Positions 37,902-55,740 of a stretch of DNA of 63,245 nucleotides are shown in pieces. A program made the translations under genes and the position numbers. The notes beneath the pieces were generated by a model that saw only the letters and a list, made by a program, of their open reading frames with translations, was not told the DNA's origin and searched no databases. The stretch's first letter is position 1. Each line of letters begins with the position of its first letter. Location: the NCBI GenBank assembly GCA_016929695.1, contig JAFGII010000076.1, forward strand, positions 1 through 63,245, read 5' to 3'. This DNA is from Ignavibacteria bacterium. GTDB lineage: Bacteria > Bacteroidota > Ignavibacteria > Tepidaquicellales > Tepidaquicellaceae.

Positions 37902-38927
37902 TTAGTAGCTGTCGTCGTGGAGGATAGTTTTGCCTTTGAAGACTTTGTAGATGTAGATTGTGTATGCAAGTACAAAGGGCATGCCGATTAAGGCAATAAT
38001 CAGCATAGTAGTTAATGTCCTTTCGGTCGAGGAAGCGTTCATTATAGTAAGACTGTTGTTTGTATCTGTAAGCGACGGAATTAATTTCGGGAATAACCCA
38101 ACAGCGGAAAGTCCGATCATAGAAAATATCGAAAGCGATGAAAAAAGAAATGCATTCCTGTTTTTCTTTGCTTTTAAAAATATTGGTATCATTATTATTG
38201 ATATCAAAAACAAAACAAAAAGTATCCAGAAGATTGGACTTTTTGCAATTCCGTCAAACAAAAACTTCGACACAAAAAGTGAAGCAATCGTCACGAAGAA
38301 CCACAAAGCCACAAAAGCAACCCAGAATTTTGTCGCGAGTTTTTCAAATTTTTCCTTTAGTTCTCCGTCAGTTTTGTGAGTCAGATAAATTGTACCCTGC
38401 ATTAAGCACATAACAAGTGCAAGAACGCCAATGAGAATGGCATAAGGGTTAAGCAGTTCAATGAATCCGCCGGTGAATATTTTTTCTTCGTTTAAAGGCA
38501 ATCCTCTCAATATATTCCCGTAAGCAACTCCGAGCAGAACAGCCGGCAATAAACTACCGATTCCGAATGAATAATCCCAGAATTTCCGCCAAGCCGGTGA
38601 TTCAACTTTTCCTCTGAACTCAAATGAAATTGCCCTGAAGAAAAGTGCAAGCAGCAGTAAATACACAGCAAGATAAAATGAACTGAATGCAGTAGCATAT
38701 ACGAGCGGATAAGCTGCAAATATTGCACCGCCGCCCGCAATCAGCCAGACTTCGTTGCCATCCCATACCGGACCGATTGAATTCATAAGAATTCTTTTAT
38801 TCTTTTCACCTTTTACAAAAAGATGCAGAGTACCGACTCCGAGGTCAAAGCCGTCAAGTATTGCATAAACAGCAAAAAGCACGGTAACGAGTATAAACCA
38901 GAGTATGTTTAAGAATTGATATTCCAT
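37902..38927 (-). CDS. cydB: Cytochrome bd ubiquinol/menaquinol oxidase subunit II
   Basis: The 341-residue protein with eight or nine helices has the CydB signatures YAILDGFDLGVGTLHLF, GPVWDGNEVWLIAGGG, FSSFYLAVYLLLLALFFRA and RKFWDYSFGIGSLLPAVLLG. It pairs with CydA in a quinol oxidase that reduces O2 without pumping protons. The start overlaps the cydA stop by one base. It is the last gene of the respiratory supercluster. No CydX-like small frame is seen after it. Confidence 0.94.
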   Translation of the reverse strand: MEYQFLNILWFILVTVLFAVYAILDGFDLGVGTLHLFVKGEKNKRILMNSIGPVWDGNEVWLIAGGGAIFAAYPLVYATAFSSFYLAVYLLLLALFFRAISFEFRGKVESPAWRKFWDYSFGIGSLLPAVLLGVAYGNILRGLPLNEEKIFTGGFIELLNPYAILIGVLALVMCLMQGTIYLTHKTDGELKEKFEKLATKFWVAFVALWFFVTIASLFVSKFLFDGIAKSPIFWILFVLFLISIIMIPIFLKAKKNRNAFLFSSLSIFSMIGLSAVGLFPKLIPSLTDTNNSLTIMNASSTERTLTTMLIIALIGMPFVLAYTIYIYKVFKGKTILHDDSY

Positions 38928-40351
38928 TATGCCGTAACCTCCTTTCCTTTCGAATCCGCAGGTTCAGATTCATTATCGTGCGGTGAGATTCCGTGTTTCA
39001 GTTCTTTCATCATTAAATAGATGTAAATGAAAGTCATAATCAGATAAATAACCGTAAATAGAATAAGCGTAAACCAGACCTGCCCGTTCGGAACTGTTGC
39101 AGAAAATGAATCTGAAGTTCTTAGCAGATTATATACCGTCCAGGGCTGTCTTCCTACTTCAGCAGCGAACCAACCGAACTGACAAGCAAGAACCGGTAAA
39201 GGAATAATCCAGAAGAGCAACCGCAGGAATTTTTTGCTCTTAAGAAGTTTTTTTCTTTTTATCTGAATTACGCCCCAGAACGATACCGCAATAAATATGC
39301 TGCCGAGTGCAACCATATTGTGATAAGAAACAAACGGCATCCACATGGGCGGCCTGTTTTCGGGCGGAATTTCCGACAGACCGGAAATTTTTGCGTTAAC
39401 ATCACCGGTAGCAAGCCAGCTCAAGACACCCGGTATTGAAATTTTTGCTTTCATCTCAGGTGGTATATCACCGGTGAGTACGCCGAACAGAACAAGCGGA
39501 GCTCCTTCCTCACTATCATAAAGACCCTGAATTGCAGCAAATTTCTCAGGTTGATATTTTGCAACATCCTGTGCGTGATGATGACCGAAGGGAAATAACT
39601 GGGAAATAGAAAAAATAAAAGCAACAATCAGAGATACTTTTAATCCTTTAAGTGCGATTTGTGTATCCCTGTTTTTTCTTATCAGATATGCAAGCGAGCC
39701 CGCCATAAGAAACGCTCCTGTCATAAATGCTGCGACCATTGTATGAAAGAACCGCATTAAGGTTGAAGGATTAAATACTGCAGCCCAGAAATCCATTAAT
39801 ATTGCGCGGTGTTCCATAGGACTGTAGCCTACTCCGAATTCCGGGTCAGTAATTATTTCTCCCGACGCAAGATTTTGTATTGCAAATCCTGCGGGTGTCT
39901 GCTGCCAGGAATTTGCTACAAGTATCCAGAATGCGGAAATTGTTGCTCCAATTGTTACCATTAAAATTGAAAACCAATGTACGCCTTTTGATACCTTGTT
40001 CCTTCCAAAAATATATAATCCGAGAAAGGTAGATTCGAGAAAGAAAGCAAAGATTGCCTCCGCGGCAAGCGGCGCACCGAATATATCTCCGACAAATGCA
40101 GAGTATCTAGCCCAGTTGGTTCCGAACTGCAGTACCATAACCAGTCCGGACGCAACTCCTATCGCAAATGTAATTGCAAGTATTTTTGAAAAGAACTTTC
40201 CGAGTTTTACATATTCCTCATCATTTCTTTTCCAGCCGAGCCATTCCACTATTACAAGCATTAAACCCAGCCCGATGGAAATCGGAGGAAAAATAAAATG
40301 GAAAGCAATTGTTACAGCAAACTGTAATCTCGATAAAAGTTCTGCCTCCAT
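38927..40351 (-). CDS. cydA: Cytochrome bd oxidase subunit I
   Basis: The 474-residue protein has LSRLQFAVTIAFHFIFPPIS (axial His of heme b595 in this segment), FGTNWARYS, EAIFAFFLESTFLGLYIFG, FFHTMVAAFMTGAFLMAG (His ligand of b558), and AEVGRQPWTVYNLLRTSDS. At 474 residues, against about 520 in E. coli, it belongs to the short Q-loop class. It oxidises menaquinol or ubiquinol and reduces O2 at the d heme. It lies 25 bases after the polytopic cytochrome c gene and overlaps cydB by one base. Confidence 0.95.
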   Translation of the reverse strand: MEAELLSRLQFAVTIAFHFIFPPISIGLGLMLVIVEWLGWKRNDEEYVKLGKFFSKILAITFAIGVASGLVMVLQFGTNWARYSAFVGDIFGAPLAAEAIFAFFLESTFLGLYIFGRNKVSKGVHWFSILMVTIGATISAFWILVANSWQQTPAGFAIQNLASGEIITDPEFGVGYSPMEHRAILMDFWAAVFNPSTLMRFFHTMVAAFMTGAFLMAGSLAYLIRKNRDTQIALKGLKVSLIVAFIFSISQLFPFGHHHAQDVAKYQPEKFAAIQGLYDSEEGAPLVLFGVLTGDIPPEMKAKISIPGVLSWLATGDVNAKISGLSEIPPENRPPMWMPFVSYHNMVALGSIFIAVSFWGVIQIKRKKLLKSKKFLRLLFWIIPLPVLACQFGWFAAEVGRQPWTVYNLLRTSDSFSATVPNGQVWFTLILFTVIYLIMTFIYIYLMMKELKHGISPHDNESEPADSKGKEVTA

Positions 40352-40376
40352 AAAATTATTTTAAATTTATAAAATA

Positions 40377-41717
40377 TTATTTTTGATATTTCTCAAGTAA
40401 AAATTTTGCGACTGCTTCCGCTTCAGCCATCTTAAGTCCCTGATTGGGCATCGGCGGATATTCGGGGTTTATCTTTGTCGGATTGTAAATATATGCTGCT
40501 AACTTCTTTAAATCGCCGTTGTATTTAGGCAGAGTTTCTTTGTAAGGAGGTCCGACAAGTTTCGCGTCGAATTTATGGCAGGCAGCGCACCTGCCGTTAT
40601 ATATGTCTTCACCGCTGATTTCTGCAATCTTCGTTGTCGTTGGTAAAGTTTTTTTCAGATTTTCCTCCGCTCTCTGATTAACCGCGACTGTATGCACTTT
40701 TACCGAATTGTCAAATGCGAATTGATTCTTGACGACAATAAAAATTACTGCAAGTAATACAGAAAAGAATACACCAGATGAAAATTTAATTTCAGAATTT
40801 TTTAAAACCGCATAAGCAAAATTCCCCGCAACAAGAAGGCAGAAGAATGCGAGTCCGGAAAAAATAAAAACACCCGATGAATATGCCTGCCGTGGGAGTA
40901 GTATAAAACCAATAAATAAAAATACGGGTAATATAAGTACTGAAATTATTGTAAGACTTGCTGAGAATTTGGTTACAAAACCCTTATATTTTTCATCCCC
41001 TGATTTTATTCCTCCCTGCCAAACAAAAAAGAAAAATAATATCGAAGCACCGGTGATAGCAAATGCAAATATCAGTAAGTCCAGAAAATTCAGCCATACT
41101 TTTCCGCTGAATATTACAGAAAGTATTGTCGGAAAATCCTGCCATTCCCGGACATTGCCCGCTATAGTAATGCTGCCAGTGAAAAGAAATGAGGCAACCA
41201 GAGTCAATATTAAACCGAGTTTACCGTATTTCTGTTTTTCGTTTAGTGTTTTACTTTCAAATTCTTTTGCCTCACCGGGAATTTTTTCTTCCGGCAAGAG
41301 AGATTTATAAGACTGTAATACCGAACTTATATGAAAACCTGTCCTGTATTTATAAATATATATCACGGCAATTAAATATATAACTGCAGATACAAAAAAT
41401 AAACTAATTGAAATTACATCAGACGAATACAGAAACCGGGAGAATACAATTGCAATTGAAATAACAGGAAGAATTATCATCACGTAACCGGCATTTTTGC
41501 TCACAGTTAGTTTCATAATCACATCTTTTGCAAACATATTATATATGAGATTATTTCTTTTATTTCCGAGATAATTGAAATACAGGGACAAAAACGACCC
41601 GCCGATTAACATACCAAGAAACGGATAGAAAACTGCAAAAGATACAATCTGAACTATATTCAGAAGCGGCATATTTTCTGCTGTCGGCGGTATTACAAGT
41701 TGTTCAAAAAAGTTCAT
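40377..41717 (-). CDS. Polytopic membrane protein with C-terminal cytochrome c domain in the bd operon
   Basis: The 446-residue protein has about eight transmembrane helices (residues about 22-46, 77-97, 102-122, 168-188, 212-234, 254-276, 283-303, 313-332). A periplasmic monoheme cytochrome c domain follows, with C377-A-A-C-H381, GPPYKETLPKYNGDLKKLAAYI and a Met ligand in PPMPNQGL. The heme motif is preceded by GEDIYNGR, as in class I cytochromes. I do not recognise the membrane part. It lies directly before cydA and after ctaB, so it may pass electrons between quinol, cytochrome c and an oxidase. Cytochrome bd itself needs no cytochrome c, so the role is open. Confidence 0.82.
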   Translation of the reverse strand: MNFFEQLVIPPTAENMPLLNIVQIVSFAVFYPFLGMLIGGSFLSLYFNYLGNKRNNLIYNMFAKDVIMKLTVSKNAGYVMIILPVISIAIVFSRFLYSSDVISISLFFVSAVIYLIAVIYIYKYRTGFHISSVLQSYKSLLPEEKIPGEAKEFESKTLNEKQKYGKLGLILTLVASFLFTGSITIAGNVREWQDFPTILSVIFSGKVWLNFLDLLIFAFAITGASILFFFFVWQGGIKSGDEKYKGFVTKFSASLTIISVLILPVFLFIGFILLPRQAYSSGVFIFSGLAFFCLLVAGNFAYAVLKNSEIKFSSGVFFSVLLAVIFIVVKNQFAFDNSVKVHTVAVNQRAEENLKKTLPTTTKIAEISGEDIYNGRCAACHKFDAKLVGPPYKETLPKYNGDLKKLAAYIYNPTKINPEYPPMPNQGLKMAEAEAVAKFLLEKYQK

Positions 41718-41754
41718 ATTCAGTTAATAATTAATAATATTAGATATCATTTTA

Positions 41755-42699
41755 TCAAAATAAAGAAATTATTTTGTCAATATAAAGCAAAAGTATATAT
41801 AATAATGTGAAAGTGTTTATTGCCATGAATAATCTGAATGTATTTTTTCTTGTAATATCTTTTTTAATATTAAGCATTGTCAGAACAATAACGGTTGCTC
41901 CTGAAAAGACCAGCAAGTAGCGTATAAAATCATTCATGATAAACCCGACAAAGGATGTTCCTGCAGCAAACAGCACTGCAAGTACTATCCAGAAAGAGGT
42001 AATAATTCTTAAAACTCTCAGTCCGAATATATCATTAAGAACAGGGAGTCCCGCCTTTTTATATTCTTTGCCGTATATTATCAGCAACAGCCAGAAGTGC
42101 GGTATCTGCCAGAGAAAAAAATACAAAGCAATATATATTATATGAAAATCAAAAAGATATCCGCCACCGGCAGTCCATCCGGCAACCGGGGGTAATGCAC
42201 CAACAAGTGAGCCCGGAATTACGGCAAGAGCGGTTTTTCTTTTTAATGGTGTGTAAATTGCATTATACCAGATTAAAGTAGTTAGACCAATTAACAAAGT
42301 GTTTAAATTTGTTCCGAAATATAAGACTAATCCTCCGGCAACGAAAAAAATTATGGCAGTTGACCAAACGAAAGAGGGTTTAACAGAACCTGCCGGCAGT
42401 GGTCTTTTACTTGTTCGGCTCATCAGTCCGTCAATGTTCCTCTCCTGAAAATGATTCAGTGCTGCCGAGCCGCAGGCAAGAAGAAATATACCAAGCGGAG
42501 CAAGAATAATTGCTTTATCTAAATTGGTTACAGCAAGAATATAACCGAGAGCAGTCGTAAACGAAACAAGAACCGTTATGCGGAGTTTTATAATTTCGGA
42601 GATTACACGAAGTATACTCATCTGATGAACAAGTTCATTGGATGAGCAGGTTTCCGGTATCTTTGTTTCATTTAATATTTCCGATATAACTGAATGCAA
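41755..42699 (-). CDS. ctaB: Protoheme IX farnesyltransferase (heme O synthase)
   Basis: The 314-residue UbiA-family protein has the prenyl-diphosphate motif NHFQERNIDGLMSRTSKRPLP and the second Asp-rich region (YTPLKRKTALAVIPGSLVGA, then WKKxD-like KEYKKAGLPVL). It converts heme B to heme O, on the way to heme A for the aa3 oxidase encoded upstream. Residues 1-30 (HSVISEILNETKIPETC) are an extra hydrophilic start. A start at Met28 (MSILRVISEIIKLRITV) is a good alternative. Heme A synthase (CtaA) is not in the window. It is 3 bases after coxB. Confidence 0.93.
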   Translation of the reverse strand: MHSVISEILNETKIPETCSSNELVHQMSILRVISEIIKLRITVLVSFTTALGYILAVTNLDKAIILAPLGIFLLACGSAALNHFQERNIDGLMSRTSKRPLPAGSVKPSFVWSTAIIFFVAGGLVLYFGTNLNTLLIGLTTLIWYNAIYTPLKRKTALAVIPGSLVGALPPVAGWTAGGGYLFDFHIIYIALYFFLWQIPHFWLLLIIYGKEYKKAGLPVLNDIFGLRVLRIITSFWIVLAVLFAAGTSFVGFIMNDFIRYLLVFSGATVIVLTMLNIKKDITRKNTFRLFMAINTFTLLYILLLYIDKIISLF

Positions 42700-42702
42700 A
42701 AA

Positions 42703-43362
42703 TTATTTTTTTAATGTGTCGTTCGTATTTTTTAAAGAATCATTTTTAAAAGATATAGTATCTTTTTCTTCTTTTATCGTGTACCATTGGTAAAATTCAT
42801 CCTCCTGCATTACAACAAGTTTTGAATACATATATGCATGCTGAAGACCGCAGTATTCTGCACAGGCGATATCAAAACTTCCGAGTTCAGTCGGCTGGAA
42901 CCACAGATAATTAATACGTCCCGGGATAGCATCTTCTTTAACTCTGAAAGCCGGTAAATAAAAACTATGATTGACATCGAGAGATTTTATTAACATTTTT
43001 ATAGGTTTATTAACAGGTACATAAAGGGTATCGGTTAATTTTCCGTTTTCATACTGAAAATCCCATTTCCACATTTTACCTGTCACTGTTATCGGCATTG
43101 CATCCTCGGGAACGTCACGCATGTATTTGAACCCCGAATAACCCGAGAAAAACATAATAAGTACAAGCACAGTAGGAATAAGTGTCCAGATTATTTCAAG
43201 AGTTGTGTTTCCGTGAATTTCCGTCGGTTTCGGATTACGTTTGCGGTTGTATTTTATTACGAAATAAATCATAGTAACAGTTACAAGCAGCAGCAATAGA
43301 ACCGATATTCCGACTATTAGTAAAAACGTTGAATCAACCTGTTGTGTTATAGTAGGTTTCAT
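42703..43362 (-). CDS. coxB: Cytochrome c oxidase subunit II
   Basis: The 219-residue protein has two N-terminal helices (about 12-36, 56-78) and a periplasmic cupredoxin domain with a complete CuA site: His132 in DVNHSFYLP, then Cys167-AEY-Cys171, His175 and Met178 in CAEYCGLQHAYMY. It receives electrons from a c-type cytochrome. It has no fused cytochrome c domain, unlike Rhodothermus caa3. That fits the separate membrane cytochromes encoded nearby. It overlaps the small Cox4 gene by four bases. Confidence 0.95.
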   Translation of the reverse strand: MKPTITQQVDSTFLLIVGISVLLLLLVTVTMIYFVIKYNRKRNPKPTEIHGNTTLEIIWTLIPTVLVLIMFFSGYSGFKYMRDVPEDAMPITVTGKMWKWDFQYENGKLTDTLYVPVNKPIKMLIKSLDVNHSFYLPAFRVKEDAIPGRINYLWFQPTELGSFDIACAEYCGLQHAYMYSKLVVMQEDEFYQWYTIKEEKDTISFKNDSLKNTNDTLKK

Positions 43363-43673
43363 TGTTGTATTGGTCTATATGTTAAATCAAAAAATGTTAA
43401 AACTATCATTACGATAAAAATGATTATACACACTGCTACGAAAACTTTAAAAATCATCGTTTCATATTTAATATGCATAAAGTAATTCATTACAAGGGCT
43501 GACTTTATAGTTGCAATTGTTAGTGCTGTAATTACTGTTAATCCCGTCAGATTCAGTCCCGCAAGTGAAACGGTTACGACGGTGAGACTTATTAAACCGA
43601 GCCAGATAAAAATATAAATGCCATAACCTGTGCTTTCGTGATTATGCTGATTTTCATTATGATTTTTTTCCAT
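43359..43673 (-). CDS. Cytochrome c oxidase subunit IV-like protein
   Basis: The 104-residue protein has a His-rich cytoplasmic start (HNENQHNHES) and three helices containing YIFIWLGLISLTVVTVSLAG and IKSALVMNYFMHIKYE, the signature of prokaryotic COX4/CtaF. It stabilises the oxidase. It overlaps coxB by four bases and starts 12 bases after coxC, with AAGGAAAAG before the ATG. Confidence 0.9.
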   Translation of the reverse strand: MEKNHNENQHNHESTGYGIYIFIWLGLISLTVVTVSLAGLNLTGLTVITALTIATIKSALVMNYFMHIKYETMIFKVFVAVCIIIFIVMIVLTFFDLTYRPIQQ

Positions 43674-43685
43674 AGTCTTTTCCTT

Positions 43686-44285
43686 TTAATGAATTAAATA
43701 AAATAACGGGAATAAAAATATCCATATAATATCAACGAGGTGCCAGTATAACCCGGCGTTTTCAAACTTCTGGAAATTATCTGCGGTAATTTTTTCTTTT
43801 ACGATAAGAAGCAGTATTATGCCAAGAAACATCATTCCTACAAGAACGTGCAGTCCGTGCAGTCCTGTCATTGCGTAATACAGTCCGAAGTAAAGTACTT
43901 CGCCATCTGAAAAATTTGCCATTTCAGGTCCTTTGGGATAGATTCCCTTGCTTATTTTTGCACCCCACTCGAAATATTTATTAACAAGGAAACCAAACCC
44001 GAGCAGTAAAGTAATTCCAAGATAAAAAATACTTAATTTCTTGCTGTTTCTCTGAAGTGCAACTATTCCAAGCACTACCGTTAAACTGCTTGTCAGGAGT
44101 ATAATCGTATTCACCATTCCAAGAGCAGTATCGAGTTTTAAAGAGGCAACTTTGAATGCGTCCGGATGAGCGAATCTGTATGCGGCATAGAGTAAGAACA
44201 TACCGCCGAACAGCAGCAATTCAGTAAAAAGAAAAAGCCACATTCCCATCTTTGAACCTACATCATCTCTGTGTATTACGCTCAT
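43686..44285 (-). CDS. coxC: Cytochrome c oxidase subunit III
   Basis: The 199-residue protein has five helices, short for subunit III but usual for CtaE-type. Motifs are MGMWLFLFTELLLFGGMFLLY, YYAMTGLHGLHVLVGMMFLG and GLYWHLVDIIWIFLFPLFYL. It supports proton uptake and stability of the oxidase. It is 66 bases after coxA in the same operon. Confidence 0.94.
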   Translation of the reverse strand: MSVIHRDDVGSKMGMWLFLFTELLLFGGMFLLYAAYRFAHPDAFKVASLKLDTALGMVNTIILLTSSLTVVLGIVALQRNSKKLSIFYLGITLLLGFGFLVNKYFEWGAKISKGIYPKGPEMANFSDGEVLYFGLYYAMTGLHGLHVLVGMMFLGIILLLIVKEKITADNFQKFENAGLYWHLVDIIWIFLFPLFYLIH

Positions 44286-44351: not shown

Positions 44352-45944
44352 TTACTTATCACTGTATTCGTGTTCATAAGGACCTTTAGTAACAGTCGGT
44401 ATTTCATTAAAATTTTCAACCGGAGGAGGAGAGGGGATTGTCCATTCGAGAGTCGTCCCGCCCCAGGGATTCATATCCGCTTTCCTGCCCTTGAGTAAAG
44501 CAATCACTATTGTAGTTATCATTATCAGTATTCCCGTTATCAGTACCCATGAACCGACGGTTGACAGTGTATGATAAATCTGAAATTCAGGCAGTGAATC
44601 ATAATATCTTCTCGGCATTCCAAGATAACCTATAATAAACATCGGAAAGTATAAAAGATTGAATCCAATAAAGAAAATTGTTGCACCTATATTCGCCGCT
44701 TTTTCATTATACATTTTTCCGAACATTTTCGGCAGCCAGTAGAAGAGTGCAGCAAAGAATATTGTACCCATACCGCCGAACATAACATAATGAAAATGAG
44801 CAACAACAAAATATGTATCAGTAACGTGAATATCCGTACTTAAGGAACCCAGAACGAGTCCTGTAAGTCCGCCTATTGAAAAAACAAAAATAAATCCCAA
44901 AACCATATACATCGGTGTCCGCACTTCTATAGAGCCTTTATACATAGTTGCAACCCAGTTAAAAATTTTCACGCCGGAAGGTACCGCAACCAGAAATGTA
45001 AGCAGCGAAAATATTGCTCGCGAAGTATCACTTATTCCGCTTGTAAACATATGATGACCCCAGACAAGATATCCGACGAAAGCAATAGCAAGACTCGACA
45101 TAGCAATTGGTCCGTATCCGAAAATATTTTTTCTCGAGAATGTTGGTATAATTTCCGAAACAATACCCATAGCAGGCAGTATCATAATATAAACTGCAGG
45201 GTGTGAGTATATCCAGAAAAGGTGCTGATAGAGAATCGGGTCACCTCCTAGCGCCGGGTCGAAAATTCCTATACCGAGAGTTCTTTCAAGTATAACGAGT
45301 ATTAAAGTTATTCCTACTACAGGAGTTGCCAGAATCTGAATCCACGCCGTCGAATACAAACCCCAAACAAACAGCGGCATCTTAAACCAGGTCATTCCCG
45401 GTGCACGCATTCTGTGTATAGTTGTAATAAAATTAATTCCGGTTAATATAGAAGAAAAACCTAGTATAAATGCTGCGAACAACGCATAAGTTACGTTGGA
45501 TGTTGACCTGATACTGTAGGGGACATAAAATGTCCAGCCGGTATCCGGTGCACCGCCTCCGATGAACAATGATGCTACAGCAAGAATTGCTCCTATTATA
45601 TATAAATACCACGATAGTAGATTCAATTTCGGAAAAATAACATCTTTTGCTCCCAATTGAATCGGCAGAAAAAAATTTCCGAACACAGCCGGTATTCCCG
45701 GAATGATAAACAAAAATATCATTATAACGCCGTGTAAGGTAAACAAAGCGTTATAAGTCTGCGGTTTCATTAATGTTTCACCCGGGCTTATCAGTTCCAG
45801 TCTCATCAAAAATCCGATGGTCATTGCAACAAGGAAAAAAGTGAGCATTGCCCATAGATACATAAGACCGATTCTTTTATGGTCTGTAGTTAACAACCAA
45901 CCGAGTATTCCCTTGTGTTTTCCTTTATACTCAAGATATGACAC
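44352..45944 (-). CDS. coxA: Cytochrome c oxidase subunit I, A2 (YS) type
   Basis: I take the GTG at 45944, which follows the sco stop by one base (TAATGTG) and gives the normal subunit I start [16 protein letters not shown]. The longer frame from 46055 would overlap sco by 110 bases. The 530-residue, 12-helix protein has heme a ligand His in [12 protein letters not shown], CuB His248 and crosslinked Tyr252 in YSHPAVY, HHMFTSG, and HFHYVMFGG for heme a3 and heme a. Tyr246-Ser247 replaces the D-channel Glu of A1 enzymes, so this is an A2-type proton-pumping oxidase, as in Rhodothermus marinus. It reduces O2 with electrons from CoxB. Confidence 0.95.
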
Positions 45945-45945
45945 A

Positions 45946-46800
45946 TTATTTACTGCTTCCACTTTCTTCTTTTTTTGATTTATTTTTCTTCTTTTTAGTG
46001 ATGAATAATACAATTGCAAAAATCGAAATTGCGAACAATATGCTTGCTCCTGCAATCCTTGTTACGTTCAGTGTATATTTTCTGCCTTCGGGGTCATAAC
46101 TGTAACACATCTTAACAATTTTTGCAATTGTAGTTCCTACTTTTCCCTGCGATGCCTCTATCAAAGCCATTTTAACATCAAACGGAAGAAAATCTATTCC
46201 ATACAAATATCTTGTAATTTTTCCTTCAGGGGATATTACAGTAAGTACTCCCGAATGAACAAAGTCATTATCCTGTTTAATATATTTAAATCCAATGGCT
46301 TCAGTAATTCTTTTAACATTAATACTGTCAGCAGTTAAAAATCTCCAGGCATCTTCCGATATTGCACGTTTTCTGAAAGTCGCAAAATAATTCTTCTTTT
46401 TTTCCGCCGCAAGAATATAATCCTCACTCGGGTCAAAACTGATTGTAAGTGTATTGAAGTCTTTTCCCGTTTCAAGGTCAATTTCATCAAGCACTGCTCC
46501 AAGTCCTGACATCAAAGGACTGCATATACCGGGGCACCTGTAATATACGAGTGATATTATTGTTGGTTTTCCTTTTGTAAGTTCTGCAAGCGTTGCGGTC
46601 TTGCCGTATTCGTCGTAAAACTTTATGTCGAGAGGAACATTTAGTCCTAGTTTTTCATCAACTCCGACATCGGGAGGTTCAGGTGTCTGGGAGAATATTG
46701 GAATCGAAAATATTAACAGAAATAAAACCGGTAATAATATTTTACCTGTATTACTGTTTTTAAGTTCGGCAATTTTCTTTTTTTCTTTAAAAGGATTCAT
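45946..46800 (-). CDS. Sco1/SenC-family copper chaperone for cytochrome oxidase
   Basis: The 284-residue protein has a signal or anchor (about residues 21-37), a thioredoxin-like domain with copper-binding [12 protein letters not shown] and the distal His in [16 protein letters not shown]-terminal transmembrane helix (about 247-267) and a Lys/Ser-rich end follow. It delivers copper to the CuA site of CoxB. It sits between the membrane cytochrome c gene and coxA. The C-terminal anchor is an uncommon addition seen in Bacteroidota-type Sco proteins. Confidence 0.92.
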
Positions 46801-46803
46801 TAT

Positions 46804-47700
46804 TTACAAAGTAATTGAATTTTTTAAATACTGAAATAACACAGTCCATTCGTCTGGGTTTAACTGTGTTACGGTTGATTTAAAACCTTTCTGAACTGTA
46901 TAATTATTTACGAAAGATATGAACTGATTTTCACTTTCATTCCAGTTTTTGTAATTGTAGAGAGATGTCAGTACTTTTTTTAAATCTCCTGAATTTTCTT
47001 TTAATAATATTGCTCCTTTGTCGTTTTTATTTTCATTTATACTTATAAGAGAATTTTTGATTTTATCGCTGATAACTTTATATTTCTCAATCAGTTTATC
47101 TTCCGCGACGGATACGGGTATTTGATTCGGTGTTTTTAACCCTTTGGATAAACTATACGTGGTCTCGAGTTCGGTCAGTTCTTCATCTGTTATCTTTGGA
47201 TATTTATCGGAAAATGTTCTCACGTAATGTATCAATGCGAATCTGTCTTCGGGCGGTAGATTTGAATAACTTGCCATTCCTCTTGAAGTAACACCTTCCT
47301 GTAAGGTTTTATACATTCCTTTAAAATCAGGTGTGTTCGTCCAGCCCTCTAATATTTGAAAATTTCTCGGTTTCGGATTCAATGTAACGCCGGCAATCCC
47401 GTCACCTTTTCCATCCTCGCCGTGACAGCTCAGGCACTGAGTCTTATATATTCCTTTGCCTTTAGCTGTCAGTTCGGGAGTCGATGACGCAAATTTATTT
47501 ATTTCTATCGGCGGTGTCATCGAACCTTTTACGTAAGGAAGGTCGTCATCCTGTTTTACGGTAATGGTATTGAATACCGGAGGAGTAATCTTGTTTATGG
47601 TTATAGTATTAATGTTATTTAGATATAACATTCCAAGTCCTATAATCAGAGCAAGTATCAGTATATAAATTATGCCGTAAAATCTTAAATACTTCTTCAT
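46804..47700 (-). CDS. Membrane-anchored monoheme cytochrome c
   Basis: The 298-residue protein has one N-terminal membrane helix (about 10-28) and a class I cytochrome c domain with C89-L-S-C-H93, GEDGKGDGIAG and GMASYSNLPPEDRFALIHYVR, whose Met serves as likely sixth ligand. A helical tail of about 130 residues follows, with NENKNDKGAILLKENSGDL and WTVLFQYLKNS. It lies between actF and sco and is the likely carrier between alternative complex III and CoxB. The domain resembles ActE, which here is fused to ActD, so this is a second cytochrome. Repeats fill the 163-base gap before it. Confidence 0.88.
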   Translation of the reverse strand: MKKYLRFYGIIYILILALIIGLGMLYLNNINTITINKITPPVFNTITVKQDDDLPYVKGSMTPPIEINKFASSTPELTAKGKGIYKTQCLSCHGEDGKGDGIAGVTLNPKPRNFQILEGWTNTPDFKGMYKTLQEGVTSRGMASYSNLPPEDRFALIHYVRTFSDKYPKITDEELTELETTYSLSKGLKTPNQIPVSVAEDKLIEKYKVISDKIKNSLISINENKNDKGAILLKENSGDLKKVLTSLYNYKNWNESENQFISFVNNYTVQKGFKSTVTQLNPDEWTVLFQYLKNSITL

Positions 47701-47705
47701 ATAAG

Positions 47706-47863
47706 TAAAAAGTTTATTAAGTTCATTAAGTTCATTAAGTTTATAAAGTTCATCAAGTTTATAAAGTTTGAAAAGTACTTAAAGTCATCCAATCAATCAT
47801 TCAATCAATCAATCAATCATTCATTCAATCACCCAATCATCCAGTCATCTAATAAACTAACAA
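47706..47863. repeat. Composite short-period repeat array between actF and the cytochrome c gene
   Basis: On the coding (minus) strand, the actF stop TAG is followed by TTAG-like units, then GATTGG/GATTGA units (about 47786-47850), then ACTTTATAA/ACTTAATGA units (about 47706-47785) that run up to the next start codon. It joins the two repeat families seen separately at 36158 and 18739. No hairpin terminator is visible, so transcription may continue. Confidence 0.8.
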
Positions 47864-49066
47864 CTAATCTATCGACAAGTCAGGATACAACTTCACTTCG
47901 AGTCCTGTTTCGAGTTTCGGGTCACCTACAGGTGTGAAGTTGGTTTTATCCGATTTAATCTTAAACACAAACAACACAAAGCCGACAATGAACAAAATAA
48001 ATCCGATTTCATTCCAGCTAAAGAATGCTGACTCCTTATTGAAATTTGGCATTATCAGCCAGTATAAGTCAAGCATATGTGCAAACAAAAGCCATACTGC
48101 CATTATTTTCAAAGTTCTGAAATTTGTCTTTGCTCTTCCGGGTAATAAAATAATAAAAGGAATAATAAAATGTATAAAAAGCAGTGCCAGAGATACAACT
48201 CCCCAGGAACCGTGCATCCTGTGCATCATCCAGAATGTTTCTTCAGGAATATCCGCATACCAGATTAAAAGAAACTGCGAAAACGCAATATACGCCCAGA
48301 ACACATTCAGTCCGAAAAGCAGAGTTCCCATGCTGTGATACAACCTGTCCTGTAGTTGCGGATGCAGGTATCCTTTCTCTTTCAAAATTACAGCTAACAG
48401 CGTTGTCGCCGCAAGTCCTGCTACAGCCGTTCCGGAGAAGTAATAAACACCAAACATTGTCGAATACCAGTGAGGTTCAAGCGACATAATCAAATCTATT
48501 GCTGTAATGGTCAGAGTTATAATTAAAATAGGTGCAAAACCTATTGACAGTTTTATATTCTTAGTTAAAAGTCCGTATTCTTTTGTAATATCCTGTTTTT
48601 CTGAATTTTTCGTTATTAAAAAATAAAACAACATCCATATCAGTATGCAGGCAAAAACCCTGATTGTAAAAAATGCTGTATTCAGATATGGAGCTTTTCC
48701 CTGCAAAACAGGGTCTGTTTCTACTGCTTCTTTATGAGACCAGTGATATAAATCGTGAATTCCAAAAATAATCGGGATAACCAGTATCAGCAAAAACGGA
48801 ATTAAAAATGCAAGGAATTCGCTGATTCGTCTGAACGGTGTTGACCAGGCGGCATCCACCATATATTCAAGTGCAACAAGCCCGAGCGAACCGACTCCAA
48901 TACTAACAATAAAAGAGTACATCAGTATATAGTTGTAAAATGCCCTGTGCGAATCAACAATAAAAGAAATCATCATCAGAACTATACCTGTACTTATCAG
49001 CAGCAGTGATGCTTTCTTTACTGATTCAGGCAGTTTTTTTTGTTCTTGTAATCCTTGCGTTGTCAT
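47864..49066 (-). CDS. actF: Alternative complex III subunit ActF (NrfD-like quinol-binding membrane protein)
   Basis: The 400-residue protein with about ten helices has SHRAFYNYILMYSFIVSIGVG, VDAAWSTPFRRISEFLAFLIP, IMSLEPHWYSTMFGVYYFSG and ISFSQFLLIWYADIPEETFWM, all typical of ActF. Together with ActC it forms the membrane arm of the quinol:cytochrome c oxidoreductase. It follows the fused actDE gene by 15 bases. Confidence 0.93.
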   Translation of the reverse strand: MTTQGLQEQKKLPESVKKASLLLISTGIVLMMISFIVDSHRAFYNYILMYSFIVSIGVGSLGLVALEYMVDAAWSTPFRRISEFLAFLIPFLLILVIPIIFGIHDLYHWSHKEAVETDPVLQGKAPYLNTAFFTIRVFACILIWMLFYFLITKNSEKQDITKEYGLLTKNIKLSIGFAPILIITLTITAIDLIMSLEPHWYSTMFGVYYFSGTAVAGLAATTLLAVILKEKGYLHPQLQDRLYHSMGTLLFGLNVFWAYIAFSQFLLIWYADIPEETFWMMHRMHGSWGVVSLALLFIHFIIPFIILLPGRAKTNFRTLKIMAVWLLFAHMLDLYWLIMPNFNKESAFFSWNEIGFILFIVGFVLFVFKIKSDKTNFTPVGDPKLETGLEVKLYPDLSID

Positions 49067-49081
49067 ATAATTAATACTTTT

Positions 49082-50320
49082 TTATTTGTTTTTATTTTCT
49101 TCACCGGGTCGTTCATTACCCGGGGGAAAATCGTTATCGAGGGCATTCTGTGACCTCAACAGCGCTCTTATATAATGAACGATTGCCCATCTGTCATCAG
49201 GCGAAATCTGCTTTGAATAAGAAGGCATTACATTCTGTCCGTTAACTATTATGTGATATATATTTCCGTCTTTGAAGTTTTTGATTTTTTCCGAATGAAG
49301 CGTCGGAGGATTGGGATATTGTCCTTTTAATCTGCTGTCGCCTTTGCCGTAATATCCGTGGCAGGAACTGCAAAATGTTTCATATTTTTGTTTTCCTCTT
49401 GCAAATACTTCTTTTGTTACAGGCAGCGGGTTTGATAGGTTTTTTACTAATGAATCGGGCATACCTTTAAATTTATATTGTGAAGAACCTTTTGATACTG
49501 TTCCTTCAACAGGTAGCCTCATTCCGAATCCGTCTTCAAAAAATTTGCTTTGTGTCTGAGCATTTACTCTGAACTGGTCTGTCATCCAATCGAAGGGTGT
49601 CGTATAAATGACTTTATTTAATATTATATATGTGCCGATTGCGGTAATTACGGCTACTCCTGCGAGCAATCCGATAAATTTCAAATCGAAAATCGGTGTT
49701 TTAATTTTATCTTCATCCTTTGTGAATTTATATATTAACGATATTTCACTGCTGCCGAGGCTTTTCAGGAATTCCGTAACTTTGTCCTTGTCAAAATTTT
49801 TATCTTCCGCTTCGATTACAATTCCATACCTGTCTGTTGATACTCGCTTCATATATTCGGTATCCATTAACGGATGAAATATTTTCGGCAGTTTATTAAA
49901 AACAAAGAGCGTAAAAATTATTGTCAGTAAAGCTGCAAACAGTACGGTTAATTCAAAAGCAACCGGCATAGAAGGCGGAAGGGCAAAAAACGGTTTTCCT
50001 CCGATAATGTTCCTGTAGTCAATTCCCGACATATATCCTATCATCAGTAATGCGATTATTACACCAAGTAGTCCGAATATAAATGTAACGAATCCGAGCT
50101 TTGTCGGTTTTAACCTCATAGCATCGTCCATTCCGTGAATAGGGTAGGGTGTATGAATATCGTATTTTGAATATTTCGATTTGCCGACTTTTTCTGCAGC
50201 GTGAAATATACTGTCGGGCGTTTCAAAAAGTGCTGCCACGGCGTATATCTCGCCTGAACGTTCGTCTATTTTAAGGTCTACGTTTACTTCAACAATCTTT
50301 TGCTTTATTTTTTTAAGCAT
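49082..50320 (-). CDS. Fused alternative complex III subunits ActD-ActE (DUF3341 plus cytochrome c)
   Basis: The 412-residue protein joins two subunits that are separate in Rhodothermus marinus. Residues about 20-155 are a DUF3341 (ActD) domain with IYAVAALFETPDSIFHAAEK, YDIHTPYPIHGMD and two helices (76-98, 118-140). Residues 160-200 are a soluble stretch, and 214-236 form a third helix. Residues 300-400 are an ActE-like cytochrome c with C317-S-S-C-H321, GYYGKGDSRLKG and candidate Met ligand in GQNVMPSYSKQI. The third helix anchors the cytochrome. It sits between actC and actF, exactly where actD and actE lie in other clusters. No frameshift or linker stop is seen, so the fusion looks genuine. 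Confidence 0.92.
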   Translation of the reverse strand: MLKKIKQKIVEVNVDLKIDERSGEIYAVAALFETPDSIFHAAEKVGKSKYSKYDIHTPYPIHGMDDAMRLKPTKLGFVTFIFGLLGVIIALLMIGYMSGIDYRNIIGGKPFFALPPSMPVAFELTVLFAALLTIIFTLFVFNKLPKIFHPLMDTEYMKRVSTDRYGIVIEAEDKNFDKDKVTEFLKSLGSSEISLIYKFTKDEDKIKTPIFDLKFIGLLAGVAVITAIGTYIILNKVIYTTPFDWMTDQFRVNAQTQSKFFEDGFGMRLPVEGTVSKGSSQYKFKGMPDSLVKNLSNPLPVTKEVFARGKQKYETFCSSCHGYYGKGDSRLKGQYPNPPTLHSEKIKNFKDGNIYHIIVNGQNVMPSYSKQISPDDRWAIVHYIRALLRSQNALDNDFPPGNERPGEENKNK

Positions 50321-50352
50321 ATAATAAAAATATAATTTATTTCTTTTTTATA

Positions 50353-50424
50353 CCAATCCTCAAATCATTCAATCACTCAATCATCCAATCACTAACCACT
50401 AATGACTAATGACTAATGACTAAT
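50353..50424. repeat. Short-period array overlapping the actC stop codon
   Basis: Four exact 7-base units (CTAATGA on the plus strand) start within the actC stop codon itself. On the sense strand this reads TAG-TCAT-TAG-TCAT. GATTGG-type units follow to about 50353. The stop codon TAG at 50422-50420 is thus the first repeat unit. Confidence 0.85.
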
Positions 50425-51772
50425 GATGCTCCGGTTGTGAGCCTTTCATCACGCCCTTCAGTTCTGTCAGGGAGATTGCGGGCATCACTTTCACAAATAA
50501 TAACATTAATGTAAAGAACAATCCAAAACTTCCTATAAATATACCAATATCATATATTGTTGGTGCATACATTCCCCAGCTTGCGGGGAGGAAATCCCTG
50601 TGCAGCGAAGTTACAATAATTACGAATCTTTCGAACCACATACCGACATTTACAAGGATTACGATTACGAGCATAAGCGGAATATTCTGCCGTACTTTCT
50701 TGAGCCAGAATAACTGCGGAAAGCCTACGTTACAGGCAATCATAACCCAGTAAGACCAGGCATACGGTCCAAACGCCCTGTTAAGAAATACGAACTGTTC
50801 AAAAATATACCCGCTGTACCAAGCCATAAAGAATTCCATCGCATACGCATATCCTACCATCGTTCCCGTCGCAAGCAGAATTTTTGCCATCTTATCGAGG
50901 TGGTTCATAGTAATGATATGTTCCATATCAAAAACTTTTCTCACAACAATCAGAACAGTTGCAACCATTCCAAATCCCGAAAATATAGCACCTGCAACAA
51001 AGTAAGGCGGGAAAATTGTTGTATGCCATCCCGGCAGCACCGACACCGCAAAATCGAAAGATACAATTGTATGAACAGAAAGCACCAGAGGAGTAGAAAG
51101 ACCTGCAAGAAGCAGATACGCTTTTTCATAATGTTGCCAGTGACGGTTTGAATTTCTCCATCCGAAGCTCAGAAGTGAATAGAAAAATTTCTTAATTCCG
51201 CTCTTCGTTCTTGAGCGCATATTAGCAATATCCGGAATAAGTCCGAGACCCCAGAAGAAGAAAGATACCACAAAGTAAGTGGAAACCGCAAACACGTCCC
51301 ATAAAAGCGGTGAGTTGAAATTTACCCATACATTATGCTGATTTGGATAAGGGAAAAGGTATCCTGCGAGCCATGGTCTGCCTACGTGTATTAACGGAAA
51401 AATTCCTGCGGTCATAACTGCAAATATTGTCATTGCCTCGGCGAACCTTGCTATACCTGTTCGCCATTTCTGCCTGAATAGATATAAAATTGCCGATATC
51501 AAAGTACCTGCGTGACCAATTCCAATCCAGAAAACGAAGTTGATAATATCAAATCCCCAGCCGACGGGGTTGTTGTTTCCCCACATACCAATACCATAGT
51601 ATATCGAATACACGAGACAGATGATACCGACCAAAAGAGCGGTACTGCTTAATGTAATTCCTAAAAACCATTTCTTAGTCGGTTTTGTTTCCGTCGGTTT
51701 AAATACTACATCGTCCAGTTCGGGAAATGTTGTCCTTTCGGTTACAAGCGGTATTTCTCTGTAGGTGCTCAA
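50420..51772 (-). CDS. actC: Alternative complex III subunit ActC (NrfD-like)
   Basis: The 450-residue ten-helix protein has [82 protein letters not shown] and [20 protein letters not shown], standard for ActC. It binds quinol and contacts ActB. A soluble start (about 1-35) contains [12 protein letters not shown]. It lies 31 bases after actB, and its stop codon is part of a repeat array. Confidence 0.95.
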
Positions 51773-51803
51773 ATTAAATTTTAATTTATATTATTTAAAA
51801 TTA

Positions 51804-54800
51804 TTAAGTATTCCTGATTTTAACAGTGTATGTGACATTCGGTTTTACTTTGATATCCTCGAGCACAGTGTATGAAAGCTTGTGTTCTCTGTATTTCTGC
51901 ACTACGTCTTCTTTATTGTTCATATCTCCGAAAGTAATTGCATTTGAAGGACAGGCATCCTGACAGGCAGTTGTAACATCCGAACCTTTTAATTCTCTCT
52001 TTTCTTCGGTTGCTTTCTGGCGAGCACTCATAATCCTCTGCAAGCAGAAAGTGCATTTTTCCATCACACCTCTCGAACGGACAGTCACTTCCGGATTGCT
52101 TAACTGATTAACGGGCTCTTCATATAATATACCGTCGGCAAATCTGTCTCGAAAGTCGAAATAATTAAATCTTCTCACTTTATAAGGACAGTTATTTGTA
52201 CAATATCTTGTTCCGACACATCTGTTATATGCCATACCGTTAATTCCGTCTTCACTATGTGTAGTAGCAGCAACAGGGCAAACATTCTCACAGGGTGCAA
52301 GGTCACAGTGCTGGCAAAGCATAGGCATAAAGTTTGCTTTCGGTTCGTCGGGAGTGCCTGAATAATACCTGTCTATTCTTATCCAGTGCATTTCACGGTT
52401 GGCTTTCACTTGGTCTTTGCCGACAACCGGTATATTGTTCTCGACATTGCAGGCAGATATGCAGTCTGCACAACCTATGCATTTATTCAAATCAATTGTC
52501 ATTGCCCATTTAACACCGGTATATTCGTGGTCTTGATTTACACTCGGAAATTCGGTAAGATTAATTCCGTCAATCTTCTTTTCTTTTTTAAGTTCATCCG
52601 GATTATTAAGATATTCATTGAATGTTGCTTCTCTTATAATGCCTCTTTTAAACTGAATGTCTTTATATTTTTCCTGGTCAATAGGGTAGTGTTCTTGAGT
52701 TGAAACTAGTTCGTAAGTATCTCCGGTTTTTGAAATCTTTGCATCTATATAAAGATACTTTGTTAATCCGGTCTTGTTAATAATTGAATTACCATTGAAT
52801 CCTATATTCGTTCCTATTTTTCCCGCATCTTTCCTGCCATAACCGAGTTCTACTGAAATCGTATTATCCGCCGCACCGGGCTGAACGAACGCTGCAATCT
52901 TCATCGTTCTTGTACCTGATTTTATCTCTACTAAATCATTTGATTTAATTCCGAGATTCCTTGCTGTTGCCGGAGATATTGCCGCATAATTATCCCAGAC
53001 AATTTTTGAAACAGGGTGCGGTATTTCCTGCAGCCAGCCGTTGTTGGCATATCTGCCGTTACCAAGGAAATGATTTCTCTTCAGAATAAGTATCAAATCG
53101 TTTGCAACTTTTATTTTGCCTGTTGTTTCACTGAAGGCATTTATTCTGAAAGAAGGTTTAGAATCAGTATTAGTTTTTACTTTAATTATTCCGTCGTGAA
53201 GGGAATTAAACCAGAAATCCCTGAATGAAGATTTAAAACCGGATTCAATATATATATTTTTTTCCCAGTTTTCCTTAAGATATTTCAGATAAAAATCAGC
53301 AGGAATTTGTTCACTCGTATTTTCATTCAGAAATGAAAGCAATATTTCCTCCCGCTGTCTTGTTTTATACAGCGGTGCAATCGCAGGCTGCTGGAGTGAA
53401 TATAAATTCGCCCTCTTTCTGTAATCACCCCAGCTTTCGAGATAATGATTTAAGGGAAGAACATAATTGCTTAATGAAGTTGTCTCATTTAAAAATTCCG
53501 ATAATGTAATTACAGTAGCTACTTTCTTCATTAATTCGGGATATTCCATGTCCCTGTCAAAATCGTAAGCAGGATTAACATCAATATGTAATATTACTTC
53601 TATGTTCCCTGACTGAATGTTCTGTTTAAATATTTCAAATTCTTCCGGAGGTGTAATTTCATTAAAATAATAGTGTGCAGATTCATAATTCAGCAGGGCA
53701 TTGTTGCCGAGTATTTCATTAATTAAATTTACCGCTATGTGAGTTGATTCAGGTAGTATACTACCTGCGAATACATACCCCGCACGCTGATTTGCAATTA
53801 AATCATCTATAAGTTTTGTAACGTTATCTTTCTTTAAGTTATGTTTCGAAGTGAATGTCTCTAATAAATATTGGTCTGTTTTTCTTTTTACATCGGAATT
53901 TGCTGTATAAGAAGATACATTCCTCTTTAATATTTCATTTATCAGACACAAAACAAATTCTTCCAGCAAGTTTGCAGGTATTCTGAATCTTTCATCTGCA
54001 TTCAATCCTGTAATTGATACTGAACTTTCCGCCGCATAGAGTTTATTTACTTTTTTGTCTAATATAACTTCCCTGTTTTCCGAAAACATACGGACGTATT
54101 CGAGTCTGTTTGATTCAGTCCCAAGAATGTCTGCTTCAAGACACAGAATTACTTTTGCATTGTCCAGGTTAACTGAAGGAATAGAAAATTCCTGACCTTC
54201 AGTATTTATTTCAAATGATTTCCTGTATCCGTTAATAAAATTTTCATCACCTGCAGTCTCATAAACATAATGTCTGGATGTAGGATATTTAATTTTAAAA
54301 TCAGAAATTAACTTGTTGAAAGAAGGAGATGTGACGGAATTTGAAATCAATGCAATCCCTTTCTTTTGTGAGACTGCATTTTTAAGTGACGATATAATTT
54401 TTTCGGTTATTGTACTCCATGAAGATACGTTGTAATTTCCATTTTTATCTGAAATTTGAGGTTCTTTTATTCTTTCCGGGCTATAAAGATTGAAAATTCC
54501 TGCCTGACCAATTGAACAGATTTTACCTTTGTTTACGGGATGGTCGGGATTACCGTCTATTTTAACCGGTCTGCCTTCCCTGGTTTTAATCAATATACCG
54601 CAGGATTCGGAACATCCTGAACAGGTTGATGCATAAAAATCGGGATTACCCGCAACTGTGTAATCAGGTTTTTTATTATAAGGGACAACTTCGCCTTTGT
54701 CACGATAATTTGCACAACCTGATATAGCAACTGCGGCTGACGCGGGCAATAAAGCAAGAAATTTTCGTCTTGAAAATCCTTTTTCTTTTTCTTCATATAT

Positions 54801-54896
54801 CTCATCTGTAAATTCGAGATTCTTTGCTTTTTCGAATTCTCCAGTTTTATTTAATTCGTTTAATCCTCTCCAGAAATTATTTTTGTTTTTATTCAA
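51804..54896 (-). CDS. actB: Alternative complex III subunit ActB (Mo-less oxidoreductase plus ferredoxin domain)
   Basis: The 1030-residue protein has a cytoplasmic lead-in, a twin-arginine signal (residues 41-60, SRRKFLALL) and lipobox Cys61, so it is exported folded and lipidated. A molybdopterin-oxidoreductase-like domain (about 85-770) follows, with CSGCSESCGI near its start. The C-terminal ferredoxin domain has CIGCADCISACNVEN, CQHCDLAPCENVCPVAA, RYCTNNCPYKVRRF and CTFCLQRI with CQDACPS, enough for four Fe-S clusters. Family members lack molybdenum cofactor. It moves electrons from ActC/F to the heme subunits. It follows the small protein gene by 19 bases. TatA is encoded in this window at 18806. 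Confidence 0.95.
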   Translation of the reverse strand: MNKNKNNFWRGLNELNKTGEFEKAKNLEFTDEIYEEKEKGFSRRKFLALLPASAAVAISGCANYRDKGEVVPYNKKPDYTVAGNPDFYASTCSGCSESCGILIKTREGRPVKIDGNPDHPVNKGKICSIGQAGIFNLYSPERIKEPQISDKNGNYNVSSWSTITEKIISSLKNAVSQKKGIALISNSVTSPSFNKLISDFKIKYPTSRHYVYETAGDENFINGYRKSFEINTEGQEFSIPSVNLDNAKVILCLEADILGTESNRLEYVRMFSENREVILDKKVNKLYAAESSVSITGLNADERFRIPANLLEEFVLCLINEILKRNVSSYTANSDVKRKTDQYLLETFTSKHNLKKDNVTKLIDDLIANQRAGYVFAGSILPESTHIAVNLINEILGNNALLNYESAHYYFNEITPPEEFEIFKQNIQSGNIEVILHIDVNPAYDFDRDMEYPELMKKVATVITLSEFLNETTSLSNYVLPLNHYLESWGDYRKRANLYSLQQPAIAPLYKTRQREEILLSFLNENTSEQIPADFYLKYLKENWEKNIYIESGFKSSFRDFWFNSLHDGIIKVKTNTDSKPSFRINAFSETTGKIKVANDLILILKRNHFLGNGRYANNGWLQEIPHPVSKIVWDNYAAISPATARNLGIKSNDLVEIKSGTRTMKIAAFVQPGAADNTISVELGYGRKDAGKIGTNIGFNGNSIINKTGLTKYLYIDAKISKTGDTYELVSTQEHYPIDQEKYKDIQFKRGIIREATFNEYLNNPDELKKEKKIDGINLTEFPSVNQDHEYTGVKWAMTIDLNKCIGCADCISACNVENNIPVVGKDQVKANREMHWIRIDRYYSGTPDEPKANFMPMLCQHCDLAPCENVCPVAATTHSEDGINGMAYNRCVGTRYCTNNCPYKVRRFNYFDFRDRFADGILYEEPVNQLSNPEVTVRSRGVMEKCTFCLQRIMSARQKATEEKRELKGSDVTTACQDACPSNAITFGDMNNKEDVVQKYREHKLSYTVLEDIKVKPNVTYTVKIRNT

Positions 54897-54915
54897 TTTT
54901 TGAAAAAATTAAAAT

Positions 54916-55122
54916 TTATACATTGTTTCTTTTAACTGAATACGGGTTTTCTTTAAATTCAACAGAAAAACCTGATGATTTCTCCGTTATCCGCTTTTTG
55001 AAAATCCGGTAGGGATTTTTAAAAACAGCAAATAACGAAACAGAACCAAATCCTAACAGAATCAGAAATTTTTTTCTGTTTAAATTTTTTCGTGAGAGAG
55101 GAAATTTTTTATTATCCGGCAT
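54916..55122 (-). CDS. Small one-helix protein inside the alternative complex III operon
   Basis: The 68-residue protein sits between actA (30 bases upstream) and actB (19 bases downstream), in the same direction. It has a basic start (SRKNLNRKKFL), a hydrophobic segment (about residues 19-35, LILLGFGSVSLFAVF) and a polar end with FSVEFKENPYSVKRN. NRKKFL resembles a Tat-type n-region but lacks the second Arg. The neat spacing supports a real gene. It could be an accessory or assembly subunit of the complex; I know of no characterised counterpart in the R. marinus six-subunit enzyme. Confidence 0.72.
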   Translation of the reverse strand: MPDNKKFPLSRKNLNRKKFLILLGFGSVSLFAVFKNPYRIFKKRITEKSSGFSVEFKENPYSVKRNNV

Positions 55123-55152
55123 TGTAAAAATATATATTAAAAAATTTGATAA

Positions 55153-55740
55153 TTACCTGTGACAGGCAGAGCAATATTCGGGTCCTTTTTTGATATTATG
55201 AGTATTTACCAGAGTATAAAATTCTGCAATTCGCTTTTCCGGATTTCTGTGGCAGTCGAGGCAGGCACCCATCGTAAATGAATTAATCTGCACAACAACT
55301 TTCATTTGTGTGACATCTCCGTGGCAGTTCGCGCAATCAATACCTTTCCCGACATGCGAAGCATGGCTGAAATATGCAAAATCGGGGATTTTATGAATTC
55401 GTTTCCATTTCAAAGGTGAATTACCTTCGAAATAATTTGTGAGTTTTACAATTTCAGCTTTGTCTTTTCTGGCAACATTGTGGCAGTTCATACAAATATC
55501 AACAGAAGGAATATTTGCCGACCTCGAAACCTCAACGCCTGTATGACAATATTTACAGTCAATTTTCATTTCCCCTGCGTGAAGTTTGTGAGAATAAGTA
55601 ACCGGCTGGTCCGGTTCATAACCAATACCGTTCCTTTCAGCATAAGATACAAAATATGTTACGGTGAAAACCAGGATTAAGGTAAATATTATTAACGGAA
55701 GCCGGACTTTTAAAGTATAATCAAGTAAGAATTTACTCAT
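55153..55740 (-). CDS. actA: Alternative complex III subunit ActA (pentaheme cytochrome c)
   Basis: The 195-residue protein has one N-terminal membrane anchor (about 12-31) and five CxxCH heme motifs in order: CKYCH, CMNCH, CANCH, CLDCH and CSACH. The count and order match ActA. It accepts electrons from ActB and passes them to a mobile or bound cytochrome. It is the first gene of the supercluster, and the operon promoter should lie in the 86 bases before it. Confidence 0.95.
   Translation of the reverse strand: MSKFLLDYTLKVRLPLIIFTLILVFTVTYFVSYAERNGIGYEPDQPVTYSHKLHAGEMKIDCKYCHTGVEVSRSANIPSVDICMNCHNVARKDKAEIVKLTNYFEGNSPLKWKRIHKIPDFAYFSHASHVGKGIDCANCHGDVTQMKVVVQINSFTMGACLDCHRNPEKRIAEFYTLVNTHNIKKGPEYCSACHR

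Follow-up and report, generated by a model that had tools for sequence, protein, structure and literature searches.

The window, a 63,245-nucleotide stretch from an Ignavibacteria bacterium, carries at 40377..41717 (minus strand) an open reading frame of 446 codons with no internal stops, which encodes a polytopic cytochrome c and is the last gene of an ACIII-aa3 oxidase operon. Towards this gene the operon reads ACIII genes, sco, cox1, cox3, coxIV, cox2 and ctaB, all on the minus strand. The ACIII block (46804..55740) encodes ActA, B, C, a DE fusion and F together with a monoheme cytochrome, with names taken from gene order and comparison with Melioribacter roseus. It is followed by the copper chaperone SCO1/SenC (45946..46800), Cox subunit I (44352..46055 as listed, the actual start probably lying downstream), Cox subunit III (43686..44285), Cox subunit IV (43359..43673) and the CuA subunit CoxB/Cox2 (42703..43362; 219 aa, without a fused cytochrome c). 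Directly upstream of the polytopic cytochrome c, in a conserved order, lies CtaB (41755..42699), a heme O synthase-like member of the UbiA family. On the other side, a 25-base gap (40352-40376) separates the stop codon of the polytopic cytochrome c from the ATG of a canonical cydA on the same strand (38927..40351; PF01654, E 1.4e-155), which is followed by a canonical cydB (37902..38927, minus strand). A promoter and terminator scan of 40200-41900 gave signals no higher than in shuffled sequence.

The C-terminal part of the protein (residues 368-446; 40380..40616, minus strand) is a class I cytochrome c domain, with a C377-A-A-C-H381 motif, a distal Met423 ligand and a PF00034 (Cytochrom_C) match at residues 369-441 (E 5.3e-6, above the cut-off). 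Among 71 relatives (of 73 collected, with two spurious L035 open reading frames left out), the CXXCH motif (C377, C380, H381) is intact in 70 and Met423 is kept in 69. The preceding residues 1-346 (40680..41717, minus strand) form a membrane domain of eight hydrophobic helices, predicted from family-averaged hydropathy and present in the AlphaFold model as well; given basic loops on alternating membrane sides, the prediction puts both the N-terminus and the heme domain outside. Full-length relatives at 36-49% identity were found in many further genomes, placing the reading frame far beyond chance. The sequence-only reading had described an eight-helix protein with a c-type heme domain 25 bases before cydA, and translation, PF00034 and hydropathy all agree with that description. 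At residues 15 and 94 the window protein has Asn and Arg, where its relatives have His (63/71) and Gln (68/71). Two family members, L253:1192-2895 (a 568-aa open frame) and L254:2-1594 (531 aa), contain two CXXCH motifs.

Residues 1-360 gave nothing over the cut-off in Pfam or NCBIfam, and the membrane part had no match among the sequences of solved structures. PF01654 (CydA) did not match the protein at E up to 1, and the GW..AEVGRQPW stretch conserved in 32 CydA sequences is absent from its translation. The earlier statement that the membrane part belongs to no known family thus holds for Pfam and NCBIfam, but not for profile and structure comparison, which points to the CydA superfamily. 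The lead was a weak match to a pair of genes that the window's genome carries on a different contig (C34, locus L036); they encode a CydA-like protein with a C-terminal heme c (L036:5241-6665) and a 331-aa partner, CydA' (6678-7670). This uncharacterised bd-superfamily pair is distant from canonical CydAB, and its heme-c CydA-like member has no reported Pfam match; several heme-c CydA-like relatives in the class survey match PF01654 above the cut-off. OR-C and OR-N families of the bd superfamily are named in the available text of PMC10839748, citing Murali et al. 2021, and CydA' with its partner would fall among them.

In hhalign comparisons, residues 4-346 of the membrane part aligned with the CydA' set at 99.5% (E 5.5e-23), CydA' with the heme-c CydA-like set at 97.9%, and the latter with canonical CydA at 96.6%; the membrane part reached 92% against the heme-c CydA-like set, and CydA' 68% against CydA. 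These profiles used 32 of 33 CydA sequences (one 315-aa partial left out) and 24 of 26 CydA-like sequences (two L050 fragments left out). Compared directly with canonical CydA, the membrane part scored only 5.6%, too weak by itself; homology at the superfamily level rests on the chain of intermediates together with structure. Because hhalign values are uncalibrated without a database, the controls carry the weight here: none of six further membrane families drawn from these genomes, nor any of three reversed profiles, reached 1% against the query. The ACIII ActC and ActF (NrfD-like) profiles scored 0.15 and 0.73% against the membrane part.

AlphaFold models built from four sequences were moderate (mean pLDDT 62 and 65, pTM 0.56 and 0.68), with the last two helices poorly modelled. 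Cytochrome bd chains made up all ten of the best Foldseek matches in the PDB (best E 1.6e-3, probability 1.00; none at E 0.001), two of them labelled chain B. VIA-align placed the models at Z 16.8-18.7 and 16.7-18.9 against ten bd-oxidase entries, with ACIII/NrfD-type chains as the next group at Z of about 12-13. On the strength of these profiles and models, we assign the membrane part to the CydA superfamily, where its nearest predicted relative is the CydA'-type partner of the heme-c CydA-like proteins.

This fold appears to have lost its hemes. The axial heme ligands of CydA, His19 and His186 in E. coli, fall in two alignment columns. In the helix-1 column, H18 of our CydA set corresponds to H34 of CydA' (His in 24/25) and to F30 of the window protein; across the 71 family members this position is Phe in 59, Leu in 9, other residues in 3 and His in none. 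In the second column, CydA H203 corresponds to CydA' position 192 (His in 14 and Met in 10 of 25) and to D213 of the window protein, with His in only 2/71 members. Within the membrane helices, no His, Met or Cys position is kept by as many as half of the 71 members. Structure prediction and search of the membrane part, as had been suggested, recovered a CydA fold; in the alignment, the equivalent ligand positions are F30 and D213. As judged from these columns, the membrane part is probably a heme-free scaffold whose bd heme sites are gone.

It is very improbable that the membrane part is still an oxidase, binding hemes at new ligands and reducing oxygen. The related heme-c CydA-like pairs do retain the helix-1 histidine, and a histidine ahead of helix 1 (His15) is kept in 63/71 members; that residue, however, is Asn in the window protein, and the family offers no widely kept transmembrane ligand in its place. 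With the ligand columns empty (His 0/71 and 2/71), we rejected residual oxidase activity.

To place the protein among oxidases, we turned to gene linkage, reading 84 loci, of which 82 come from our G-numbered genomes (the window's included, and G144 contributing both of its copies) and the remaining 2 from named MAGs. Immediately upstream of the polytopic cytochrome c lies ctaB in 74 loci and cox2 or coxIV in 7, so that the gene stands directly behind ctaB or cox2/coxIV of an ACIII-aa3 operon in 81/84; it stands alone in the other 3. By contrast, no cyd gene lies within 1.4 kb downstream in 80 of the loci, while 2 end too early to judge. The two with a downstream cyd gene are the window, with cydA on the same strand, and L033, with cydBA on the opposite strand. 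In the latter (L033:7001-10858), cydBA lies about 20 bases past the polytopic cytochrome c, forming a second, convergent cyd neighbor.

Co-occurrence follows the same division. The gene is present in 66/149 genomes of the class, including all 65 that carry window-type CoxB (at least 45% identity to the window's CoxB); in the one additional genome, G064, the polytopic cytochrome c copy is cut by a contig end. Canonical CydA (E below 1e-40) occurs in 38/66 gene-positive and 28/83 gene-negative genomes, and is missing from 28/66 gene-positive ones, with all of these tables assuming that the class samples compared are the same 149 genomes; the Fisher value computed from them carries no correction for phylogeny. 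Two genomes of the window's genus, G001 and G002, have cydAB 70-73% identical to the window's, and neither CoxB nor the polytopic cytochrome c. Among relatives of the window's genome, 37/40 contain a match, though in G010 and G039 at the least it covers the c domain only, and one scan of genome contigs gave 3 loci. At E<=0.001, profile A1 matches 163/296 genomes of the GTDB phylum; nearly all of the matches listed outside the class are to the c domain only. L005 and L031 are apparently one contig, and profile A1 includes only L031.

These counts bear on the suggestion that the protein forms a link between quinol, cytochrome c and cytochrome bd, its heme c exchanging electrons with CydAB. The proposal drew on the same-strand cydA 25 bases away, an arrangement seen in the window alone (1/84 loci), and we give it hardly any credence. 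The linkage counts, the co-occurrence counts for CydA and for CoxB, and the two congeners with cydAB but without the gene instead identify the adjacency as a local accident, making cydA a neighbor rather than a functional partner. With cyd lacking downstream in 80/84 loci and the G001/G002 pattern, the link fails the survey that was proposed along with it, and a cydAB partnership was rejected. The alternative offered at the same time, a functional place on the side of the aa3 oxidase, is strongly supported by linkage in 81/84 loci and by co-occurrence with CoxB in 65/65 genomes.

Published work on a cultivated relative is in keeping with this placement. The orthologue in M. roseus is MROS_0033, and in G308 the genes running from ActA down to the polytopic cytochrome c are ordered as Mros0045-0033 are in the available text of PMC3534657. 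According to the accessible portion of PMC5492636, MROS_0033 was detected only in aerobically grown cells, together with CoxI, CoxII, ActC and ActDE, fitting both the aa3 side and a membrane protein. The bd oxidase, encoded at MROS_0842-0843, far from MROS_0033, was unresponsive to oxygen in the same aerobic comparison (PMC5492636, available text), a further point against a CydAB link.

A place in the aa3 operon could also reflect a role in assembly or biogenesis of the oxidase, for instance in heme or copper handling alongside CtaB and SCO1, with heme c as a redox switch. The gene adjoins ctaB and shares its operon with sco as well. Class I cytochromes c with a Met ligand, however, are typical electron carriers; in addition, some operons keep the gene with no ctaB just upstream, and the fold is CydA-like. 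We regard an assembly role as quite unlikely.

Which site in the oxidase might receive electrons is suggested by comparison with CoxB. Within the class there are two kinds of ACIII-oxidase operon. All 16 operons of the second kind that were fetched, each linked to ACIII, have a CXXCH fused to CoxB, and the polytopic cytochrome c occurs in none of those genomes. In window-type operons, the fetched CoxB lacks a fused CXXCH, except in G139, G065 and G390, where both are present; for 61 weaker CoxB matches, 34 loci were fetched and read. Since three genomes have both, the polytopic cytochrome c is not a strict replacement of the fused c, and since the pattern follows two old operon lineages, the complementarity reflects few independent events. 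Loci L220, L221 and L222 combine a window-type CoxB carrying fused heme c with the polytopic cytochrome in one operon.

Two genomes, both draft assemblies, show what happens to the gene where the oxidase core is gone. In G330 (L127:6903-7943), all that is left of the protein is its membrane part (347 aa, no heme c), encoded beside Cox3/CoxIV; ACIII is kept, and cbb3-type genes follow the membrane part. Searching G330 for window-type Cox1/Cox2, we found no CoxB, and the Cox1 query weakly matches just a 704-aa cbb3-like frame. In G007 (L028:1501-2742), the c domain is cut short before Met423; no Cox1 or CoxB match was found in this genome, with a query that matches 122/149 genomes of the class. 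In both cases, absence of Cox1/Cox2 goes along with a missing or shortened c domain.

Some copies lie away from cox genes. In G397 (L124:2708-11795), the sole copy found stands at the end of a nosZ-nosD cluster (NosZ TIGR04246, 948.9 bits), and the cox operon of this genome (L264) ends with ctaB and lacks the polytopic cytochrome c. In both G144 and G437, a second copy lies near nrfA, about 23-25 kb from nosZ. NosZ, like CoxB, accepts electrons at a CuA site. The protein might donate electrons from the membrane to CuA enzymes in general and thus serve nitrous oxide reductase as well, as the G397 arrangement and the second copies in G144 and G437 would suggest. Only three genomes are involved, however, and nosZ is non-adjacent in two of them, leaving this broader role somewhat unlikely.

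We favor, with a probability of roughly 0.7, an electron carrier dedicated to the ACIII-aa3 branch that sits on a heme-free anchor of CydA fold and feeds CuA. The observations behind it are gene linkage, homology and fold, the missing ligands and co-loss with Cox1/Cox2, and from them we infer the direction of electron flow, CuA as acceptor, and docking. Electrons would pass from the ACIII hemes to the tethered class I cytochrome c and on to CuA of CoxB, and the polytopic cytochrome c would thereby take over, in trans, the task that elsewhere falls to the cytochrome c fused to caa3-type CoxB. From linkage, co-occurrence and published co-expression, the protein is plausibly associated with an ACIII-aa3 supercomplex. 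That other ACIII monoheme cytochromes could donate to aa3 speaks against a dedicated carrier, as do the copies in G397, G144 and G437 that lie apart from cox genes.

The carrier role is not itself new, as MROS_0033 was already proposed as an ACIII-to-oxidase electron carrier in M. roseus (PMC3534657 / PMC5492636, available text). The new elements are the anchor, which is polytopic and derived from the bd superfamily, and the linkage seen across the class. In the literature searched on these proteins, we found no description of a membrane part with a bd fold; the available text of PMC3534657 calls MROS_0033 a 'class I soluble cytochrome c551/c552', whereas by its sequence it is a polytopic protein whose membrane part resembles CydA. 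Other carriers between ACIII and aa3 are monoheme as well: ActE and the mobile heme domain at the N-terminus of ActA, and the fused heme of the R. marinus caa3 oxidase, according to the available text of PMC8552683. ActE is lipid-anchored rather than polytopic (PMC8552683, available text), and c domains of the ActE type score at most 21 bits to the family of the polytopic cytochrome c. The fused c of caa3-type CoxB has a similar proposed role, a monoheme c feeding CuA, but the polytopic cytochrome c is a separate protein with its own eight-helix anchor, and the fused c domains score no more than 19.8 bits to its family. It would be a further solution to ACIII-aa3 electron transfer.

The layout as a whole may have come from the bd superfamily. 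G211, a genome outside the class, encodes beside its heme-c CydA-like protein the only CydA' that ends in a heme c domain, and this one c domain scores 66 bits against the family c profile; the best c-domain scores in other groups are 25 bits for heme-c CydA-like, 21 for ActE-like, 20 for CoxB-fused and 17 for ActDE-like proteins. By this single sequence, the entire protein, membrane part included, looks derived from a CydA'-c subunit. Compared with CydA'-type partners, the polytopic cytochrome c has Phe for the helix-1 His, sits in an ACIII-aa3 operon and has no CydA-like gene beside it in any of the loci read, unlike a CydAA' oxidase of OR-C/OR-N type; the pair in its own genome lies on C34. 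The ancestor would have been a CydA'-type bd-superfamily subunit that already had a C-terminal heme c and gave rise to the eight-helix domain; loss of the heme-binding histidines would then have turned that domain into a membrane scaffold without heme, which plausibly docks in an ACIII-aa3 supercomplex. A bolder version, which we regard as less likely than not, is that a bd-type subunit that lost its hemes was captured by the rival oxygen-reducing superfamily as a permanent ACIII-aa3 scaffold and obligatory CuA donor, and that further copies were recruited to serve the CuA of nitrous oxide reductase.

Heme-copper oxidases and cytochrome bd are assigned to distinct superfamilies. If our reading is true, a bd-superfamily protein without heme has become a fixed component of heme-copper oxidase operons across the class, which would represent an exchange of parts between the two superfamilies, and the 'soluble cytochrome' label of MROS_0033 would be corrected. 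It would also explain how ACIII feeds aa3 where CoxB has no cytochrome c, and the cultivated M. roseus makes the dedicated-carrier role testable.
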